DNA of 64,000 nt from a virus. Shown here one piece after another: positions 3,725-63,930 of this stretch. The position numbers and the translations under genes are program-made. The notes beneath the pieces are model-generated. The model had not been told where the DNA came from. It searched no databases and saw only the letters and a list, made by a program, of their open reading frames with translations. The first letter of the stretch is position 1; every line of letters begins with the position of its first letter. The stretch is taken from positions 62,001-126,000 of IMG/VR virus record IMGVR_UViG_3300028558_000016, one strand, 5' to 3'.

Positions 3725-4025
3725 CAGAACCATTAAATTCTTTGAATTCATTTTGAGAATGAAGATAGGTGGAATTGCAATATTCCCTTTCATCTTCGTT
3801 CCCAATAATGCATTTGTGACCAAACGACTTTTAAATCATGAGAGGATTCATCTCAGACAACAGATAGAAATGCTTGTCATTCCATTTTACATCGTCTACC
3901 TTTGGGAGTTCTTCACAAAGGGCTACATGAACGTCTCATTCGAGAAAGAAGCTTATGCTAACGACAAGAACTTAGAATACCTTAAGACGAGAAAGATGTT
4001 TGAGTCATTTAGATCTTACTTATAA
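3708..4025 (+). CDS. Small membrane-associated HExxH-like protein
   Basis: 105 residues. A HERIH motif (about residues 43-47) fits a zinc HExxH signature, followed by a hydrophobic stretch (MLVIPFYIVYLWEF) and FEKEAY, whose glutamate could be the third ligand. Similar short proteins with HE-IH followed by a membrane helix are common in Bacteroidetes genomes as uncharacterised proteins. It might be a minimal membrane metallopeptidase. Its 3' end overlaps that of the converging gene by 17 bases with no terminator visible between them. Confidence 0.55.
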   Translation: MLIKSSRTIKFFEFILRMKIGGIAIFPFIFVPNNAFVTKRLLNHERIHLRQQIEMLVIPFYIVYLWEFFTKGYMNVSFEKEAYANDKNLEYLKTRKMFESFRSYL

Positions 4026-4608
4026 ACTCTCTGATCCTGTTCTCAACGAACTTGGATTTGTTTATTGCCATCCTATCAGATATTTCCAAAAACTGTTCGT
4101 ACACATCTTCGTCAATGGTAAAAGTCACAGTCTTCTTTCCAGGATTAAATTCAGCATATCTCAAATCCCATCCAAGCGATTTATTAAACCTCTCCACAGG
4201 TCTTATCTCATATACGTAAATATATTTCGATTTAAAACCTCCACCTATTTGTAATGGTGCATCAAAATCATTCAAAGAATGTATTCGACGTGTCTTCAAC
4301 TCAATAAATTTTTTGGTGACATCTAAATCAGGAGCAACTATTGTTCCAGTGTCAGTAGATACCCAGAATGTTGGAGCATCAACGATCGTTATAACCTTTC
4401 CAGGTAATAAGCGTTTAAAGAAAGTCTCGAACGTTGATTTATTTAATTGGATATGTTCTGGATCGAAACCAACCTCAGAAAAAATCCATTCAAATGCTTC
4501 TTGTCTTGGATCATCGTAATGCGCTTTATCTGTTTTCTCTTCGGTTTTCTCAAAGGAGGAAGGTCCAGCGACTACTCTTCCAATTCCAGAACGTTTATTG
4601 TTTGCCAT
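4009..4608 (-). CDS. Ribbon-helix-helix-like DNA-binding protein, unknown role
   Basis: 199 residues. The C-terminal ~45 residues (VTFTIDEDVYEQFLEIS, then NKSKFVENRIREFI) have the strand-helix-helix pattern of ribbon-helix-helix repressors. The N-terminal 150 residues are not recognised. The gene stands just downstream of the capsid operon terminator and has its own AT-only upstream stretch with TATAAATA-like sequence, so it is probably transcribed separately. A regulator of late genes is possible but is inference. Confidence 0.5.
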   Translation of the reverse strand: MANNKRSGIGRVVAGPSSFEKTEEKTDKAHYDDPRQEAFEWIFSEVGFDPEHIQLNKSTFETFFKRLLPGKVITIVDAPTFWVSTDTGTIVAPDLDVTKKFIELKTRRIHSLNDFDAPLQIGGGFKSKYIYVYEIRPVERFNKSLGWDLRYAEFNPGKKTVTFTIDEDVYEQFLEISDRMAINKSKFVENRIREFISKI

Positions 4609-4727: not shown

Positions 4728-6251
4728 TTAAACGATTAATCCAGAAGAAGGAAGCGTGATCGAGAACGTGAAGTACATAGTTTCTGGGTGGAAACCTGCA
4801 AGTACTAAAGCGTATCTTGATTTTACCGCGATCTTTGGAGACATAGTACCTTCAGAGATAGTCTGGATAGACTCAGCCATCATGTATGGCATGAATTTAA
4901 TTCCAGGTTCGTCATCAGCACCTTTTCTACCTACAAGAACTCTTGTGTCATTCCATTTCATGTTTTGATCAACATAAACTGTCATTCCAGCAAGTGAACC
5001 AACTGGGTAAAGCGATCCGTTATTCTGCGATGCAGTGTTAGCGAATGGAGCTGTTACGAATTGGCTGATGTCTTGGATAGCAGTAGCGATTTGCGAGTTA
5101 CAAACTACGTAGTTTGCAGGACCTCTTCTACCTCTGTTAGCAACAACGTTAGCTGCAGCTAAAATTCTCGAGAAGATTCTTCTTTGGAATGTAGCTTGGT
5201 TTTCGTATGTTCCTACGGTTGGTAAAGCAGCGAGGTTTAAGTTCAACGACTGACCTTCGTTCGCAGCGAAGTTTGTCGAGTTCGTAGCTCCTTGAGTAAA
5301 CGCAGTCGACAAGATGTGCTTGTTGATCGACTGAGAGATCTCATTAACCAATGCGTTCTCAACCATGGAAACCACGTCGATACCGAATTGTTTGTTAAGA
5401 TCCTGAATTTGCTCAGTAGTTACAGAAGCAGCAACCTGGTAGGTCTTAGCTTCTACGAACTTAGTGAAAGTCTTCAGACCCATAGATCTGTAGTAAGTGC
5501 TCTCACCTGTTTCTCTGGTCATTGGACCGTCGTTACCTGTTGAGGTAGCGAAAGGACCTTCCCAGTTGTCTGTGTCAGAGTCACCAGCACCTGTAAACCC
5601 TTGGATATGGTCTTCCAATGCAGGAACTAAAGACGCAGCTACTGTTAACGGAATAGTTGCTAAAGCATCATCCGTTAAAGTGTAGGCAGAACCTACAGCG
5701 AATACAGTTGCAACTGTCAAAGTCGTCGGAGTTGAAGCCGTGATTCTGAAAATTGGGAAACCGTCAATTCTTGACTTACCTACAAACACAAGTGACATGT
5801 TGTTACCACCGTTTGCTGCAGTGTACGTAGTACCTACAGTATAAGTTCCAGTGATACCAGCTTTAATCACAAGCGGTTGAGTTGCCGAGTTCAACTGACC
5901 ACCACCATATACATAGTCAAGGTAAGTTAAAACTCCCGTTGGACCTGGCATAGGGATAACCGGAACGATGTCAAAACCAACAGTCTTCGCAGCTACCTGA
6001 ATAGCTAAAGGAAGTAAAGATGGAAATTTGTCACCAGAACCTGAAGCTGTTCTTGTAGGAGCAACTGGTTGGCCTTGGAATCCTGCTAAACCTGTTAAGG
6101 TTTGGTAAGCAGTAGATGAACTTTCGTTCAATGAGTGGTAGTGGCAGTACTTAGAAAGCCATTCCACTTTGTTAGGATCTTTGATAGAGGTTTTGCTCTC
6201 GATGATCGGAGACCAGTTATCGAAGATCTCTTGTTCGTTAATCATTTTCAT
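4728..6251 (-). CDS. Major capsid protein, T4 gp23-like
   Basis: 507 residues. The order of motifs follows T4 gp23: an N-terminal helix-rich part ending in a Gly/Ser/Thr linker, a PMPGPTGVL...YG segment near residue 105, FVEAKTYQVAASVTTEQIQDL resembling the gp23 EAKSRQLKAAYSIELAQDL region, a NYVVCNSQIA segment, and a C-terminal VLVGRKGADDEPGI...PYM loop. It should form the hexameric shell of the head. The N-terminal ~65 residues contain candidate (I/L)xE cleavage sites (for example IIE and LNE), expected for maturation by the adjacent protease. It is transcribed downstream of the protease-scaffold gene and ends at a strong terminator. Confidence 0.85.
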   Translation of the reverse strand: MKMINEQEIFDNWSPIIESKTSIKDPNKVEWLSKYCHYHSLNESSSTAYQTLTGLAGFQGQPVAPTRTASGSGDKFPSLLPLAIQVAAKTVGFDIVPVIPMPGPTGVLTYLDYVYGGGQLNSATQPLVIKAGITGTYTVGTTYTAANGGNNMSLVFVGKSRIDGFPIFRITASTPTTLTVATVFAVGSAYTLTDDALATIPLTVAASLVPALEDHIQGFTGAGDSDTDNWEGPFATSTGNDGPMTRETGESTYYRSMGLKTFTKFVEAKTYQVAASVTTEQIQDLNKQFGIDVVSMVENALVNEISQSINKHILSTAFTQGATNSTNFAANEGQSLNLNLAALPTVGTYENQATFQRRIFSRILAAANVVANRGRRGPANYVVCNSQIATAIQDISQFVTAPFANTASQNNGSLYPVGSLAGMTVYVDQNMKWNDTRVLVGRKGADDEPGIKFMPYMMAESIQTISEGTMSPKIAVKSRYALVLAGFHPETMYFTFSITLPSSGLIV

Positions 6252-56551: not shown

Positions 56552-56819
56552 TACGCAACGAACTCTGATAAGAACTCAGAAAGTTCAGGACTGTCAGACT
56601 ATTAGTGACTTAGAAAAACTGTTTGATGAATTTAAAACTATTCAAGGCGCAAGCAAAGAATACAGTTCTGAGACACTCAAATTCAAATTAGAACAATTGA
56701 GATTTTTATTAAACAGCGAATTAAAATTCGATGATGTTCCATGGAACGTGATAACAAGATCACATGGCATAAGAGCCAAATGCATGGAATTATTTTACTA
56801 CGAAAAACATGGAGTTTAA
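56535..56819 (+). CDS. Small helical protein
   Basis: 94 residues, all-helical by pattern (TISDLEKLFDEFKTIQG; LKFKLEQLRFLLNSELKF). Not recognised. It lies between the hypothetical gene and the Thg1 gene, 14 bases before the latter. Confidence 0.45.
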   Translation: METLNDTQRTLIRTQKVQDCQTISDLEKLFDEFKTIQGASKEYSSETLKFKLEQLRFLLNSELKFDDVPWNVITRSHGIRAKCMELFYYEKHGV

Positions 56820-56833
56820 GCACTACACAAACT

Positions 56834-57673
56834 ATGTCCATAAAAGATATTTTTAAAGGAATTTTTGATAAAGCATTTCAGACTCTTGGAGACCGAATGA
56901 AAGGTTACGAGAAAGCAGATAAGAGAAAGCTTGAACCAAAAACTCCGGTTATTATAAGGCTCGACGGAAGAGCTTTTCACACATATACAAGAGGGTTTAA
57001 GAAACCTTATGACGAAGTCATTGGTAACGCTATGAAATACACCACAATAAAATTGTGCGAGGAAGTTCAGAACGTCAGGCTTGCGTATTCACAATCGGAC
57101 GAGATAACATTATTCTTGGCTGATTATGGAAATAAAAACACTCAGCAATGGTTCAACGGAGAAGTTGACAAGATCGTTTCATTGTCTGCTTCTATTGCAA
57201 CGTATTACTTCAATGAGTATATGGAAATACATCATTGGAGCAAATACCCAGAGAAGAAAAAACCTGCCACATTTGATTCAAGGTCATTCAACATTCCAAG
57301 ACATGAGGTCACCAATAATTTTATTTGGAGACAACAAGATGGAATAAGAAATTCCATATCGGGGTTGGCACAAGCTAATTATTCAGATAAAGAACTTCAT
57401 CGTAAAAGCACAGCTCAAATGTTATCCATGTTAGAAGATAAAAAAGTACATTGGGATGAGATGAGCACTTACAAGAAAAGAGGTTTTTGCGTAACTAAAG
57501 AATATTTCGTGCTTGAAGCTTCTGAACTCAATCTTCCTGAAAATGTGAAGGTTACAGAACCCATAATGAGATCTAAATGGGTTGTGGATGAGGACGTACC
57601 AATCTTTTCAGAAGATAAATCCTATATAGAGGTTTTGGTAACATTAGGAGAACTTGCCAATAAATATGAATAA
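56834..57673 (+). CDS. tRNA-His guanylyltransferase family protein (Thg1/TLP)
   Basis: 279 residues from ATG 56834 (the frame is open upstream). IIRLDGRAFHTYTRGFKKPYDE is the N-terminal metal-binding motif, AYSQSDEITLFL the second carboxylate motif, and FDSRSFNIPRHEV a further conserved block. Thg1 adds G(-1) to tRNA-His; Thg1-like proteins repair 5'-truncated tRNAs by 3'-5' nucleotide addition. No tRNA-His is in this window, so the repair (TLP) role fits better with the tRNA array 4 kb downstream. Confidence 0.88.
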   Translation: MSIKDIFKGIFDKAFQTLGDRMKGYEKADKRKLEPKTPVIIRLDGRAFHTYTRGFKKPYDEVIGNAMKYTTIKLCEEVQNVRLAYSQSDEITLFLADYGNKNTQQWFNGEVDKIVSLSASIATYYFNEYMEIHHWSKYPEKKKPATFDSRSFNIPRHEVTNNFIWRQQDGIRNSISGLAQANYSDKELHRKSTAQMLSMLEDKKVHWDEMSTYKKRGFCVTKEYFVLEASELNLPENVKVTEPIMRSKWVVDEDVPIFSEDKSYIEVLVTLGELANKYE

Positions 57674-60655: not shown

Positions 60656-61024
60656 ATGAGAAGCAGCTTCATAGATTGGCTGATAGAACAACAGGAAGCA
60701 GATGGTAAAGCTGGAATACTTTCTCGTTGGGTTCTCTCTGAAATCGAATTCGAGCCTCTTGAATTCCATGACATTTTAGAGAGAATAATAAATGATCCAC
60801 ATGGAACCGTGGATGATAAAGCTGAGATGAAAGCCATCGCAGTTTATTGCTTGGTGGATTATGCTTCATTTCTTGCTGAAGAAGGAATAGGAATAAAAAT
60901 AATTGAAGATGCAGAGATCGATAAAGAAAGACTCAACATTGCTTTGAAAAATGAAAATTACGAAGAGGCCGCAAAATTAAGAGACAGATTAAATAAATTA
61001 AAAGATGGAAATAAAGAGGAGTAA
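60656..61024 (+). CDS. Protein with C-terminal UVR motif
   Basis: 122 residues. The last 30 residues (ERLNIALKNENYEEAAKLRD) match the UVR (UvrB-UvrC interaction) helical hairpin, also found in other adaptor proteins. The first 85 residues are a helical domain (SSFIDWLIEQQEADGK) of unknown type. It might dock on UvrB/UvrC or a ClpC-type partner. Overlaps the YggL-like gene by 20 bases. Confidence 0.6.
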   Translation: MRSSFIDWLIEQQEADGKAGILSRWVLSEIEFEPLEFHDILERIINDPHGTVDDKAEMKAIAVYCLVDYASFLAEEGIGIKIIEDAEIDKERLNIALKNENYEEAAKLRDRLNKLKDGNKEE

Positions 61025-61445
61025 ACACAGTCGCAGAAGAAGAAAGAAATTACACGTTGGTGAATACCAATTGTTTGGTTTTACGATTCTTATTAAAACA
61101 AAAGAAGCTGATTACAATAATCCAGATGATATTGAATTCATTCATGCGCTTGACGATGCCGTGATCGACATAATAGAGTCAGAAGGTTTATGTTGTGCAG
61201 GCGGTGGAGGAAAAGATTATACCATGTTTGCTATGTCACCAATCGGCAAGAAAAACAATGTAACAGAGGATAAAATTTCCAATGTCTTAAAAAGAGTCAA
61301 AGCTATTGACTCTGTTATAGATGCAGTCACTTTTCCCATGATAGATGCATGGCATTTTTCGGATGCAGATGATAAGAAAGAAGAGGCTCTTATATTAGAA
61401 GCGGTTAATCGTCTCGGAATAAAAGATTACAAAATAATAAAATAA
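61005..61445 (+). CDS. YggL (DUF469)-like 50S-ribosome-binding protein
   Basis: 146 residues. KRSKHSRRRRKKLHVGEYQLFGF matches the RSRRLRKKLHVGEFQELGF start of YggL, which binds the 50S subunit; the rest is an alpha/beta domain (GGGGKDYTMFAMSPIG). Longer than bacterial YggL (~105 residues). It stands directly before the tRNA-array promoter. A role in tuning host ribosomes during infection is plausible but inferred. Confidence 0.75.
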   Translation: MEIKRSKHSRRRRKKLHVGEYQLFGFTILIKTKEADYNNPDDIEFIHALDDAVIDIIESEGLCCAGGGGKDYTMFAMSPIGKKNNVTEDKISNVLKRVKAIDSVIDAVTFPMIDAWHFSDADDKKEEALILEAVNRLGIKDYKIIK

Positions 61446-61471
61446 ATTTTTTCGTTTCAAATATTGTTCCT

Positions 61472-61479
61472 ATATTTGT
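61472..61479 (+). promoter_or_regulatory. Host-type promoter box TATATTTG of the tRNA array
   Basis: TATATTTG fits the Bacteroidetes -7 element. It opens the leader region of the tRNA array. A second, late-type box TATATAG lies at 61503-61509. Confidence 0.6.
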
Positions 61480-61525
61480 AAAAGAAATTAGAAACAAAAA
61501 GATATATAGTTAATAGAATAAGCAA

Positions 61526-61615
61526 ATGACAACTACTTTAACATACACGAACAGGTTTACTGCGGATTGCGCGGATGAACAATTGTTGGGTTTGTTAAAC
61601 AGTCCGATGCGATAA
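61526..61615 (+). CDS. Threonine-rich leader peptide (putative)
   Basis: 29 codons, ATG 61526 to TAA 61615. Six of the first twelve residues are Thr (MTTTLTYTNRFT), then ADCADEQLLGLLN. Codons 21-25 lie over the left arm of a 12-bp pairing that competes with the following terminator. This is the architecture of translational attenuation leaders; protein function as such is unlikely. Confidence 0.45.
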   Translation: MTTTLTYTNRFTADCADEQLLGLLNSPMR

Positions 61616-61664
61616 AATATTTCATCAACTTTAACAAACCCGAGCTAACCACTCGGGTTTTTTT
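61588..61664 (+). promoter_or_regulatory. Attenuator-like competing hairpins before the tRNA array
   Basis: GGGTTTGTTAAA (61588-61599) is perfectly complementary to TTTAACAAACCC (61630-61641). The terminator AAACCCGAG (61636-61644) / CTCGGGTTT (61652-61660) plus T tract uses six of the same bases, so the two structures exclude each other. Confidence 0.6.
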
Positions 61665-61688: not shown

Positions 61689-61760
61689 GGTTCTGTAGTC
61701 AAAGGGTTACGATTTTTGGTTGTCAACCAAGAGGTGCGGGTTCGAGTCCCGTCAGAATCG
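61689..61760 (+). tRNA. tRNA-Asp (GTC), divergent D arm
   Basis: Acceptor GGTTCTG/CAGAATC (one wobble), anticodon stem TTTGG/CCAAG with loop TTGTCAA (anticodon GTC), T arm GCGGG-TTCGAGT-CCCGT, discriminator G73 as expected for Asp. The D stem is only 3 bp (GTC/GAT) with loop AAAGGGTTAC. No CCA encoded. Confidence 0.75.
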
Positions 61761-61762
61761 CT

Positions 61763-61833
61763 GGAGGAAACATGGGTTCGAATCCCATACGAAATGGAAA
61801 CACATTTCGTTCGTTTAGTGGCAGGACGTCTCC
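61763..61833 (+). tRNA. Candidate permuted tRNA: 3' half precedes 5' half
   Basis: 3' part: GGAGG (61763-61767), AAAC, T arm ATGGG-TTCGAAT-CCCAT (61772-61788), acceptor strand ACGAAAT (61789-61795), G96. Linker GAAACAC. 5' part: acceptor strand ATTTCGT (61804-61810), T8, D arm GTT-TAGTGGCAG-GAC, G26, TCTCC (61829-61833). Rejoined, this gives acceptor 7/7, anticodon stem TCTCC/GGAGG 5/5 (one wobble), variable loop of 4-5 and a canonical T arm. The anticodon itself falls at the break and cannot be read. Alternative: remnants of two tandem copies. Confidence 0.55.
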
Positions 61834-61848
61834 CCGAATTGGAAGTTT

Positions 61849-61919
61849 GGTCCGGTGGCCGAGTGGTTAGGCGGAGCTCTGCAAAAGCTCATACGGCGGT
61901 TCGAATCCGTCCCGGACCT
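61849..61919 (+). tRNA. tRNA-Cys (GCA)
   Basis: Acceptor GGTCCGG/CCGGACC, D stem GCC/GGC, anticodon stem GAGCT/AGCTC with loop CTGCAAA (anticodon GCA), T arm GGCGG-TTCGAAT-CCGTC, discriminator T73 as in Cys tRNAs. No CCA encoded. Confidence 0.88.
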
Positions 61920-62038
61920 CGTGGTGTAGAAGAGTATTGTGAAAATGGAAACCGTGCAAGGTGTAACAGTAAACAAAATGCTTCGTTCGTAAATGATTGG
62001 TCACATGAATTAATTCACTTGGCCATAACTGTAAAATT
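61920..62038 (+). other. Spacer in tRNA array, possibly structured
   Basis: 119 bases without a standard tRNA or a plausible ORF. GGTC-ACA-TGAATTAATTCA-CTT-GGCC (62000-62025) can fold. The string TTCGTTCGT at 61981-61990 repeats the one in the 5' part of the permuted tRNA candidate, and a GAAAATGGAAAC string near 61940 recalls its linker, so a decayed or second permuted element is possible. Confidence 0.35.
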
Positions 62039-62112
62039 GGTGGCGTAGTTCAGCTGGTTAGAATGCCTGCCTGTCACGCAGGAGGTCACGGGTTCGAGTC
62101 CCGTCGTCACCG
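62039..62112 (+). tRNA. tRNA-Asp (GTC)
   Basis: Acceptor GGTGGCG/CGTCACC, D arm GTTC...GAAT, anticodon stem CCTGC/GCAGG with loop CTGTCAC (GTC), T arm ACGGG-TTCGAGT-CCCGT, G73. Close to the bacterial tRNA-Asp consensus; the second Asp tRNA of the array. Confidence 0.93.
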
Positions 62113-62129
62113 CAAATGTTCTTTGAAAT

Positions 62130-62203
62130 GGTCCTATGGTGGAATTGGTTAACACGTCAGTTTCTCAAACTGAAGATTACGGGTTCGATCCCCGTTGGGA
62201 CTA
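62130..62203 (+). tRNA. tRNA-Glu (CTC)
   Basis: Acceptor GGTCCTA/TGGGACT (wobbles at ends), D arm with GTGGAATTGGTTAACAC, anticodon stem TCAGT/ACTGA with loop TTCTCAA (anticodon CTC), T arm ACGGG-TTCGATC-CCCGT, A73. Confidence 0.82.
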
Positions 62204-62208
62204 CGAAT

Positions 62209-62300
62209 GAATTAAGCCGATAGACTGGTTAATGGCGCGTCGACAACGTCCGTGATAAGGTTTCCATGATGAAACTCATGCTGATCACGTAGGCTAATTC
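62209..62300 (+). ncRNA. Unidentified structured RNA element in tRNA array
   Basis: GAATTA(A)GCC at 62209-62218 pairs with GGCTAATTC at 62292-62300 (9 bp with one bulge). Inside, GTGAT pairs with ATCAC and encloses GTTTC-CATGAT-GAAAC. There is a D-arm-like stretch (ACTGGTTAATGGC) but no T-arm consensus. It has tRNA-like length (~92 bases) and sits where a tRNA would be expected. Confidence 0.4.
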
Positions 62301-62308
62301 ACTTATTT

Positions 62309-62385
62309 GGGGCCTTAGCTCAGTTGGCCAGAGCACCTGCCTTGCACGCAGGGGGTCATCGGTTCGAATCCGATAGGCTCCACCA
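62309..62385 (+). tRNA. tRNA-Ala (TGC) with encoded CCA
   Basis: Acceptor GGGGCCT/AGGCTCC (G3 faces T70, the G3:U70 alanine identity pair), D arm GCTC...GAGC, anticodon stem CCTGC/GCAGG with loop CTTGCAC (TGC), T arm ATCGG-TTCGAAT-CCGAT, A73, then CCA. Confidence 0.95.
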
Positions 62386-62449
62386 AATGATTAGTTGAAG
62401 TAGATGGAAAATCGTTCTGTTGGTAACCATTTTCCAAATTAATGTGATG

Positions 62450-62671
62450 ATGTCTCAGACTTATATCACGAACCAACAAAGAGTGGTGAACTTAAAAATC
62501 ACCGTGAGTAAAAAAGAAGATAACGTTCTTTTGATATTTAAAAACAAGAAGTCGATGATCTACCTTGAAAAAGGTGAATCAACGAAAGTTCCGATCCCAA
62601 TGATCACAACGTGTTTTACGTTGAAGAAGTTTAGATTGAAATTATCGTTCGACTTAATGTGTGAAAAATAA
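62450..62671 (+). CDS. Small protein inside the tRNA array
   Basis: 73 residues from ATG 62450 (ATG 62447 also in frame). Beta-rich N-terminal part (RVVNLKITVSKKEDNVLLIF) followed by a lysine-rich C-terminal part (TLKKFRLKLSFDL). Not recognised. It ends six bases before the next tRNA; its low-complexity codon use is like that of other phage genes. Upstream, GGAAAAT/ATTTTCC (62405-62435) forms a hairpin. Confidence 0.4.
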   Translation: MSQTYITNQQRVVNLKITVSKKEDNVLLIFKNKKSMIYLEKGESTKVPIPMITTCFTLKKFRLKLSFDLMCEK

Positions 62672-62677
62672 TTTCAC

Positions 62678-62751
62678 GCTCCTGTAGTGGAACTGGTTAA
62701 CACGTCCGCCTTTCACGCGGAAGATCGCGGGTTCGAACCCCGTCGGGAGTA
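62678..62751 (+). tRNA. tRNA-Glu (TTC)
   Basis: Acceptor GCTCCTG/CGGGAGT, anticodon stem TCCGC/GCGGA with loop CTTTCAC (TTC), T arm GCGGG-TTCGAAC-CCCGT, A73. The D arm (GTGGAACTGGTTAACAC) is nearly the same as in tRNA-Glu (CTC). Confidence 0.88.
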
Positions 62752-62756
62752 CAAAT

Positions 62757-62842
62757 GTTGCCGTATGCAAATTGGTTTAAGCGAACAGACTTTCAATCTG
62801 TGTTCCGTATGGAACGTGCGGGTTCGAACCCCGTCGGCAATA
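62757..62842 (+). tRNA. Class II tRNA with anticodon TTC
   Basis: 86 bases. Acceptor GTTGCCG/CGGCAAT, D stem TGC/GCG, anticodon stem ACAGA/TCTGT with loop CTTTCAA (anticodon TTC), long variable arm GTTCC-GTAT-GGAAC, T arm GCGGG-TTCGAAC-CCCGT, A73. A long variable arm belongs to Leu, Ser or Tyr tRNAs, while TTC is a Glu anticodon; A73 favours a Leu body. Amino-acid identity is therefore open. Confidence 0.8.
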
Positions 62843-62928
62843 CAAAAATAAAATAATAGGAGGACCCAGGCTGTGGACGCAACAAAAATGTAATTTCTCT
62901 TTACGAACAGTTTTGCAAAGAGAACGGA

Positions 62929-63720
62929 GTGGAATTTGAAATAGTAAAATCCGTAATTCCACATGATGACACAACTCTTTTCTGCTGTTCAGGAATGCAA
63001 CAGTATAAAAGCAAGTTTAAAGATCAAAATTATAAATGCACGATTTCAAACATCCAACCGTGCATCAGATTAAATGATCTTGAAGAAATAGGAGACAGCA
63101 CTCATTTCCTATACTTCAACATGATGGGATTCTTTTCTTTCAGAGAATGGACTGTGAAAAGAACAATTGATTTTTGGATGTCGTTCATTAATAAGATTGG
63201 TCTTAAAGTGGATTATGTTACAATCCATCCAGACAAAAAAGAATGGAAAGACTTTTATATTGAATACAATGTTGAAGTAAAAGAAGATCTCGAATGCACT
63301 TGGACTGATGGAGACCTTGGAGGATACTGCACAGAATTTTATGTGAACGGTATTGAGATAGGAAACATAGTCAATTGCAATGGTGATTGCATAGATGTTG
63401 GATTTGGTTTAGAAAGACTTGACATGCTTGTCAACAATAAAACAAAAGATGAGATAAGCGTGTTGAAGGAAACCATTGAAAAGATAATTGAAAGCGGTTA
63501 TGTCCCTGGACCTAAACAGCAGGGATACATCTTGAGAAAGCTTTTGAGATTGTTATATGTGAAAGGTGGAAGTATCGATCATGAATTCTTTGTCAAGGAA
63601 AAAGAAAGACAGGAACGATTGGTAAGAAAATATTCTTTGCTAAAACAAAAGCACAAAGACAAAAGCAAAGAATGGTGGTATGGAACACATGGAATTGATT
63701 TGAATGAAATGGGGCCTTAG
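62929..63720 (+). CDS. Minimal alanyl-tRNA synthetase (catalytic core only)
   Basis: 263 residues from GTG 62929, but homology-like sequence (SLYEQFCKENG) runs upstream in frame to 62893 or beyond; see the finding on its 5' end. Class II AlaRS motifs in order: SGMQQYKSKF, QPCIRLNDLEEIGDSTHFLYF (motif 1/2 region), MMGFFSFREWTVK, a TWTDGDLGGYCTEFY loop, then VGFGLERLDMLV (motif 3) and GYILRKLLRLLYVKGG. After WWYGTHGIDLNE it stops; the rest of the tRNA-recognition domain, editing domain and C-Ala domain are absent. Its stop lies inside tRNA-Ala (GGC). Confidence 0.82.
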   Translation: MEFEIVKSVIPHDDTTLFCCSGMQQYKSKFKDQNYKCTISNIQPCIRLNDLEEIGDSTHFLYFNMMGFFSFREWTVKRTIDFWMSFINKIGLKVDYVTIHPDKKEWKDFYIEYNVEVKEDLECTWTDGDLGGYCTEFYVNGIEIGNIVNCNGDCIDVGFGLERLDMLVNNKTKDEISVLKETIEKIIESGYVPGPKQQGYILRKLLRLLYVKGGSIDHEFFVKEKERQERLVRKYSLLKQKHKDKSKEWWYGTHGIDLNEMGP

Positions 63721-63785
63721 CTCATTTGGCTTAGAGCGCTTGCCTGGCAGGCAAGAGGTGACGGGTTCGAAACCCGTAGGCTCCA
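63711..63785 (+). tRNA. tRNA-Ala (GGC)
   Basis: Acceptor GGGGCCT/AGGCTCC with G3:T70, anticodon stem CTTGC/GCAAG with loop CTGGCAG (GGC), T arm GACGG/ACGGG-type with TTCGAAA loop, A73, no CCA. The AlaRS-like stop codon (TAG 63718-63720) lies within its 5' end. Confidence 0.92.
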
Positions 63786-63855
63786 CTATCGGAAAGGATC
63801 ACAACATCCCGTACGAGAAAGAACGACACAACTGTTGTGAGTTGGAAAGTTCTTC
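63786..63855 (+). other. Spacer in tRNA array
   Basis: 70 bases, no gene seen. CACAAC-T-GTTGTG (63826-63838) is a short palindrome. Nothing further recognised. Confidence 0.4.
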
Positions 63856-63927
63856 GGGATCATAGTATAAGGGCAAGTACGCATCCCGCTCAGGGATGAA
63901 ATGCAGGTTCGAATCCTGTTGGTTCTA
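63856..63927 (+). tRNA. Atypical tRNA, anticodon probably CTC (Glu-like)
   Basis: Acceptor GGGATCA/TGGTTCT has three wobbles; D arm GTA-TAAGGGCAAG-TAC; anticodon stem CATCC/GGATG with loop CGCTCAG, so position 33 is G in place of the near-universal U; T arm GCAGG-TTCGAAT-CCTGT; A73. The anticodon reads CTC if the 7-base loop is right. Confidence 0.65.
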
Positions 63928-63930
63928 CAA

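Follow-up and report, generated by a model that had tools for sequence, protein, structure and literature searches.

A probable ribosome-mediated attenuator ahead of an amino-acid-matched tRNA operon in a phage genome

The stretch of DNA analysed here (the window) comprises 64,000 nucleotides and corresponds to bases 62001-126000 of the 482,156-base virus record IMGVR_UViG_3300028558_000016 (called G000). Close to its right end a leader region precedes an array of tRNA genes, the first of which (Asp) begins at 61689. The leader contains a short open reading frame (ORF) and two overlapping pairings, a terminator and a putative antiterminator. The features are the following, in window coordinates.

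61440-61478, + strand: promoter region common to other tRNA operons of the genome, with the -7 box TATATTTG at 61471-61478
61491-61508, + strand: conserved leader element GAAACA..RTATATA
61526-61615, + strand: leader ORF MTTTLTYTNRFTADCADEQLLGLLNSPMR, 29 codons
61562-61579, + strand: putative control codons 13-18 (Ala Asp Cys Ala Asp Glu), matching amino acids of the operon's tRNAs
61588-61599, + strand: segment 2, antiterminator left arm GGGTTTGTTAAA, covering codons 21-25
61630-61641, + strand: segment 3, antiterminator right arm TTTAACAAACCC, overlapping the terminator
61636-61664, + strand: intrinsic terminator with a 9 bp stem, AAACCCGAG-CTAACCA-CTCGGGTTT at 61636-61660, followed by a T run
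61689-63928, + strand: tRNA array Asp Cys Asp Glu Ala Glu Glu Ala Glu (nine by ARAGORN), running on beyond the window end

A first-pass annotation of this DNA had pointed out the promoter box, the 29-codon ORF with six Thr in its first twelve residues, the perfect 12-bp pairing of 61588-61599 with 61630-61641, the position of the left arm over codons 21-25, and a terminator that uses six bases (AAACCC) of the right arm. All of these can be read directly in the sequence.

The -7 box TATATTTG matches the Bacteroidetes -7 consensus TAnnTTTG as given in the accessible part of PMC7366714. Allowing up to three mismatches, the promoter pattern was found five times in the 482-kb record, every time upstream of a tRNA operon, so that the promoter sequence of the window operon recurs before other tRNA clusters of the genome. 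No match was obtained in the record on the opposite strand or with a reversed control pattern, and the exact pattern had no match in IMG/VR. The element GAAACA..RTATATA is matched eight times in the record, seven times within the leaders of the seven tRNA operons described below; its reversed control pattern has four matches.

The window leader folds better than 200 of 200 shuffled sequences (z -3.6). When the 40 nt 3' of the control codons were paired with the terminator arm, 2 of 2000 shuffles paired equally well, and a second test of the antiterminator pairing gave z = -5.5 (0/300 shuffles). Generic scans on their own were at chance level, with 11 promoters vs 14.0 expected and 3 terminators vs 3.4 expected. 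Codons 13-18 are the best-scoring run of the window leader, and an equally good run was present in 13 of 5000 simulated leaders.

The tRNA census of the record yielded 62 matches, 61 of them above the cut-off. Seven tRNA operons share out all 20 amino acids, and in every one of them (7/7) a short ORF and a terminator lie ahead of the first tRNA. Each of these ORFs is rich in the amino acids of the tRNAs behind it; the operons and the runs found in their leaders are given below.

Asp/Cys/Glu/Ala (window): ADCADE
Asn/Gln/Tyr: NNNNQQQYQQNNY
Ile/Arg: ITRIIRIRRR
Trp/His: HIHKHQIWH
Leu/Ser: LSLSLSLSLSLS
Lys/Thr/Met/Gly, plus one Asn: TTGTTTTTKTGKGK
Pro/Phe/Val: PQFQFVVPF

For the Pro/Phe/Val operon the composition of the leader was predicted from its tRNAs and was afterwards read as PQFQFVVPF. 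Of the 5040 possible assignments of the seven leaders to the seven tRNA sets, no other scores as well as the true one. Isoacceptors appear to be sampled as well as amino acids, since 35 of the 38 distinct operon anticodons can read leader codons when wobble is allowed (one distant Arg tRNA was assigned to the Ile/Arg operon for this count).

Related phages were reached through the major head protein. The IMG/VR record G001 (373,759 bases), whose head protein is 76% identical, shares all seven operons; its leaders have diverged in sequence and kept the same composition. The orthologue of the window leader reads MKTNSTYLFMLTAADCAEEDNIGLVELTMR, and further leaders of G001 read MKKYNAYQQYNQNQNQ.., MKNLIHIHHIW.., MKQMINIVRISRRR.. 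and MKKNLSLSSLLSLSLLS... In G006 (343,544 bases, head protein 59%) the tRNAs are grouped differently, and two leaders, ..FFGNIAINFMPQGNNPFVQVGIAKWYNGQYEKP.. and ..TLSSLHLDTTSTSCELSLC.., match the new grouping. Similar units are present in the huge phages LR756500, LR756504, LR756501, LR745206, Lak-C1 and Lak-B3, for example MKAISVHIIHIWEHLLEEV.. ahead of His, Glu, Val, Trp and Leu, and MKAMILSLCLSLSLSL.. ahead of Leu, Leu, Ser, Cys, Ser, Ser, Leu and Leu.

The correspondence between leaders and tRNAs was assessed under a mechanical rule. Terminators with a tRNA start no more than 400 nt downstream were taken; the longest ATG ORF of 15-60 codons ending between 110 nt before and 25 nt after the T-run start was taken as the leader, and the tRNAs as far as the next unit as its set. 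The census covered 28 records and the leader search 16 of them, in stretches around the tRNA clusters listed rather than at every single tRNA; the other 12 records comprise seven without tRNAs, four with one or two (G003, G005, G008 and G009), and G007, a duplicate of G006. From XacN1 one of the two terminal repeats was used, and several lone tRNAs of Atu_ph07 were left out. The rule yielded 50 units in 13 of the 16 phages and no unit in T5, pT24 and PAU. Wrong picks were not removed from the counts; they concern the Leu unit of LR756501, the leaders LS of G000 and IR of G001, and a spurious second unit within the PFV operon. The rule missed the IR unit of G000.

Compared with its own tRNA set, leader composition gave a sum of z of 132.6, the permutation mean being 0.1 (sd 9.6); this value was not reached in 200,000 global permutations, nor in 200,000 permutations of the pairing within phages. 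Without the close relatives G001 and Lak-B3 the sum of z was 107.8 (0/100,000). In 35 of the 50 units z exceeded 2, and the own tRNA set ranked first in 20 and among the top three in 36.

The pairing found in the window recurs as well. In all seven leaders of G000 the stretch right after the control codons pairs with the 5' arm of the terminator. Counted from the first base of the last control codon, the left end of this pairing lies 4-14 nt downstream; of 2000 shuffles, 0 to 60 paired equally well. A significant antiterminator (z < -2) was found in 32 of the 50 units vs none of 94 control terminators not followed by tRNAs. When the window and G001 leaders were compared for compensatory changes, as proposed in the first-pass annotation, all 12 pairs were found to be kept, two through compensatory exchanges in both arms and one through wobble; sliding the arms breaks pairs.

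Folding of both alternatives, a check proposed in the first-pass annotation, was performed with a ribosome footprint placed on the window leader. An A site anywhere on codons 5-17 gave the antiterminator in the prediction, one from codon 20 to the stop codon the terminator, and codons 18-19 gave a mixture. The complete, untranslated leader folds into the terminator form. In foldings truncated once the 5' arm of the terminator has been made, carried out for 14 leaders from two phages, the antiterminator probability drops where the control run ends. The switch codon follows the end of the control run with offsets of -1 to +3 codons (r = 0.94, 0/100,000 permutations), these 14 leaders not being independent because those of the two phages are orthologous pairs. 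A protector or pause hairpin 1:2 is part of the minimum-energy fold of the window leader, and none of its seven pairs appears in the truncated folds.

From these data, the stretch 61472-61664 very probably controls its phage tRNA operon by ribosome-mediated transcription attenuation, the tRNAs of the operon being matched to the leader in amino acids. The anatomy, the match between leader and tRNA set, the mutually exclusive pairings, their geometry and their conservation are all present in the sequence itself; the start of transcription, translation, stalling, read-through and the biological trigger, as well as the direction of the switch, are what we infer from them. RNA polymerase would start near 61485 and a ribosome would translate the leader. 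With ample charged Ala, Asp, Cys and Glu tRNAs the ribosome would clear codons 13-18 and cover the left arm, upon which the terminator would form and the array would be off. Scarcity of any of these charged tRNAs would stall the ribosome on ADCADE and leave the left arm free; GGGTTTGTTAAA could then pair with TTTAACAAACCC, no terminator would form, and the tRNAs together with Ala- and Asp-tRNA synthetase genes would be made. The six sister operons would act likewise for the other 16 amino acids, so that each module would be supplied on demand. The trigger may be host tRNA depletion or a high demand late in infection. Depletion of tRNAs by hosts during infection, described in the accessible part of PMC10264068, could account for such control.

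Attenuation of the tRNA array through leader translation, as put forward in the first-pass annotation, is thus strongly supported by the sequence comparisons, and the proposed direction (stalling leads to read-through, completion to termination) by footprint and truncated folding. With respect to the further suggestion that the array is turned on when translation falters, the trigger would not be as unspecific as that, as the window contains one of seven amino-acid-specific units.

Several observations weigh against this interpretation. The window ORF as a whole is not enriched for the amino acids of its tRNAs (6/28, p 0.51), the enrichment being limited to the codon run. In 15 of the 50 units z was 2 or lower, some of them wrong ORF picks and some perhaps real failures, and 18 of the 50 lacked a significant antiterminator. 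Among the control frames, determined for the first 36 units, reverse complement +1 was above chance (56/20,000). The number of pairs kept between the window and G001 leaders is not significant by shuffling on two sequences (127/500). Furthermore, in equilibrium folding of the complete leaders only 4 of 14 switched; in the other 10 the terminator persisted wherever the ribosome stood. For the window leader the outcome varied with the point at which the transcript was cut. Equilibrium folding was therefore replaced by truncated folding as the switching test, and both results are reported here. As equilibrium folding mostly gives the terminator and the switch is seen with truncated folding only, the decision would have to be kinetic, which is assumed in the model; the coupling of ribosome and polymerase in the host is assumed too. 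In known attenuators the switch is kinetic.

We considered four alternatives to attenuation by a ribosome stalled on the matched codons. First, the leader peptide could report tRNA supply but act after transcription, on processing or stability of the tRNA precursor, or via Rho, the terminator being a plain insulator. Some of the 18 units without antiterminator are composition-matched, among them the leader of phage G (antiterminator z +0.4), which speaks for this reading. The difference between the 50 units and the control terminators with respect to pairing speaks against it, and we regard it as improbable.

Second, a protein or another factor instead of the translating ribosome could choose between the hairpins, the ORF being incidental. 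Phage antiterminator proteins are known in general, and the presence of the conserved element GAAACA..RTATATA in all seven leaders also speaks for this explanation. Against it, the amino-acid match is confined to the leader's own frame (in the first 36 units, three of the four alternative frames are at chance), and the switch point follows the end of the control run. This explanation is likewise unlikely.

Third, the attenuator could respond to threonine, a stall on the six early Thr codons turning the array on, as the first-pass annotation had it. Six Thr among the first twelve residues are suggestive, and footprint folding is compatible with the idea: the left arm stays unoccupied as long as the ribosome is at about codons 5 to 17, and stalling on Thr would also give read-through. 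The operon, however, has no tRNA-Thr, which places the Thr residues of the window leader outside the matching of leaders and tRNAs. The G001 orthologue has three Thr in the first twelve residues (MKTNSTYLFMLT) vs six and has retained AADCAEED; the Thr operon of the genome carries a Thr-rich leader of its own; and an MTT or MKT start is also found in leaders of other operons without tRNA-Thr. We therefore rejected Thr codons as control codons and consider a threonine response very unlikely.

Fourth, an ordinary terminator after an upstream gene, together with a meaningless short ORF, would agree with promoter and terminator scans at chance level, yet is contradicted by all group statistics (permutations, antiterminators vs controls, correlation of the switch codon) and has a negligible probability.

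Several of the operons hold further genes of translation. All five aminoacyl-tRNA synthetase genes that were found (5/5) lie in four operons and are cognate to their operon:

62929-63717 (window), + strand: alanyl-tRNA synthetase-like gene within the array, limited to the catalytic part (PF01411, E 8.7e-20; TIGR00344 below cut-off)
G000:126571-127833: aspartyl-tRNA synthetase of the window operon, beyond the window (NF003483)
G000:387479-388666: Tyr synthetase gene, Asn/Gln/Tyr operon
G000:393722-394849: Pro synthetase gene, Pro/Phe/Val operon
G000:321227-322687: Leu synthetase gene, Leu/Ser operon

Genes for SmpB, a release-factor domain protein and RNA ligases are situated within or adjoining tRNA operons. 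In the window, a YggL-like 50S-binding protein gene (61005-61445) lies directly ahead of the promoter, and a gene for tRNA-His guanylyltransferase (Thg1, PF04446) is found upstream (56741-57673).

Leader-peptide attenuators are known from the amino-acid biosynthetic operons trp, his, thr, leu, phe and ilv of enterobacteria. The phage units resemble them in the short ORF with runs of control codons, in the segment common to antiterminator and terminator, and in that a stall would mean read-through. They differ in that the phage leaders would control tRNA genes, that is, a non-coding product, and in that many mix two to a dozen amino acids. Since the tRNA made under this control would itself read the control codons, the loop would close on the sensor itself, unlike in the biosynthetic operons. 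T-box riboswitches sense tRNA charging by binding uncharged tRNA directly and have no leader ORF; the phage units would have in common with them that tRNA charging is sensed and that translation genes are controlled by antitermination. T-box models matched neither the scanned loci nor the window leader. At gathering score an Rfam scan of 13 loci returned RF00005 (tRNA) only; the window leader reached 22 bits with Leu_leader (cut-off 50) and 18.2 with Trp_leader (cut-off 41), and Thr_leader was not found up to E 10.

Closer in target are the leader attenuators of synthetase genes, pheST in gamma-proteobacteria and candidates upstream of leuS and trpS in Streptomyces, described in the accessible part of PMC1262725. 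There, too, the leader encodes the amino acid of the controlled translation gene, and the phage operons hold cognate synthetase genes as well; the synthetase-gene attenuators, however, are bacterial, involve a single amino acid and lack tRNA genes, the term 'tRNA gene' having no occurrence in the accessible text of PMC1262725. For Bacteroidetes, leader-peptide control has been proposed for amino-acid operons of Flavobacterium psychrophilum (accessible part of PMC9723704), and leader-like short ORFs are described in B. thetaiotaomicron (accessible part of PMC7366714). These candidates concern host metabolic genes and not phage tRNAs, and make the mechanism plausible in the likely host phylum.

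A full-text literature search, with supplements and subscription journals outside its scope, returned no description of tRNA genes under leader-peptide control, whether in phages or in other systems. In the accessible text of the papers describing these phages (PMC7162821, PMC6784885, PMC8346664) 'attenuat', 'leader' and 'terminator' do not occur, nor do 'attenuat' and 'leader' in that of PMC7824862. We rate the mechanism as known, and the target, the kind of genome and the design (multi-amino-acid, self-referential, all 20) as new.

On balance we favour the broader view that huge phages run a virus-encoded supply network for translation covering twenty amino acids. It would consist of amino-acid regulons, often with cognate synthetases, each switched codon by codon by its leader, would be fed back on tRNA supply and would answer tRNA-cutting defences per amino acid. 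It would have arisen early in the lineage to which Lak and the largest phages known belong; look-alikes are seen in the unrelated cultured Bacillus phage G and Agrobacterium phage Atu_ph07. Classical attenuation would thereby be extended from enzymes that make amino acids to tRNAs. The leader sequences themselves would state what the phage monitors, namely the supply of the tRNAs behind them; as the monitored tRNAs are named in each leader's own sequence, the question is testable leader by leader. The 35 clearly matched units (z > 2) are candidate amino-acid-specific switches, and leader units may help to identify and delimit the tRNA operons of uncultivated phages.

The two look-alikes in cultured phages are leads only. 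In Bacillus phage G (JN638751; L161, 1582-1716) an ORF MMKCSWFEFDTDFTDVFYCEYTFYSLYTFLDIRK.. precedes tRNAs for Cys, Asp, Phe, Tyr, Glu, Thr and Ser. One of the two units of this phage is composition-matched (z 4.1) and has a terminator, an antiterminator not being found; it may be an independent case in a cultured phage. In Agrobacterium phage Atu_ph07 (MF403008; L278, reverse strand 955-1134) an ORF ..EIIAIERNVFVRAEAAMFWYPI.. is located ahead of Ala Arg Phe Pro Ile Tyr Trp Met Glu... Here the antiterminator of the large operon has z -2.9 and the composition z 0.8, the latter being low because the tRNA set is large; the leader resembles the units of the huge phages. The composition z of the XacN1 leader is -0.1. 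In Vibrio phage KVP40 (L164, reverse strand 3884-4044) a 37-codon ORF, a candidate leader, and a terminator lie directly before the tRNA array; its composition (z -0.7) is uninformative because the tRNA set spans 19 amino acids.

Closer relatives were also sought via the upstream YggL-like gene, and none was found. With the control-codon 15-mer, the context of leader, terminator and tRNA was seen only in G001 among 80 of 92 IMG/VR matches listed, which limits the covariation of the window leader to two sequences. Among relatives of the alanyl-tRNA synthetase tRNAs were present at one of six loci, and the mechanical rule found no leader unit there.

Two further observations concern the tRNA genes. 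Candidate circularly permuted tRNA genes, in which the order of the halves is reversed, the 3' half with T arm and acceptor strand preceding the 5' half, and the acceptor strands face each other across a short spacer, are located at 61762-61848 of the window, in Lak-C1 (L148, reverse strand, about 1310-1430) and in LR745206 (L269, about 5560-5660). ARAGORN calls a tRNA with ambiguous anticodon on the doubled segments; in the window one of five tRNA spacers contains such a candidate. They may be due to chance, since three of six scan matches are without a normal upstream partner.

Clusters with a suppressor tRNA (anticodon CUA) are found at G000:372969 (L018:1970) and in G001 (L111:955), each preceded by a gene for peptidyl-tRNA hydrolase (PTH2). 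Both PTH2 genes have an in-frame UAG at codon 3 (MK*INTYPK.. and MK*VQKLY..), and in the G000 cluster two further genes carry UAG at codon 3 or 4; within the window there is no excess of early UAG. Perhaps the suppressor clusters follow the same logic as the leader units, the codon read by the tRNA gating its own operon.
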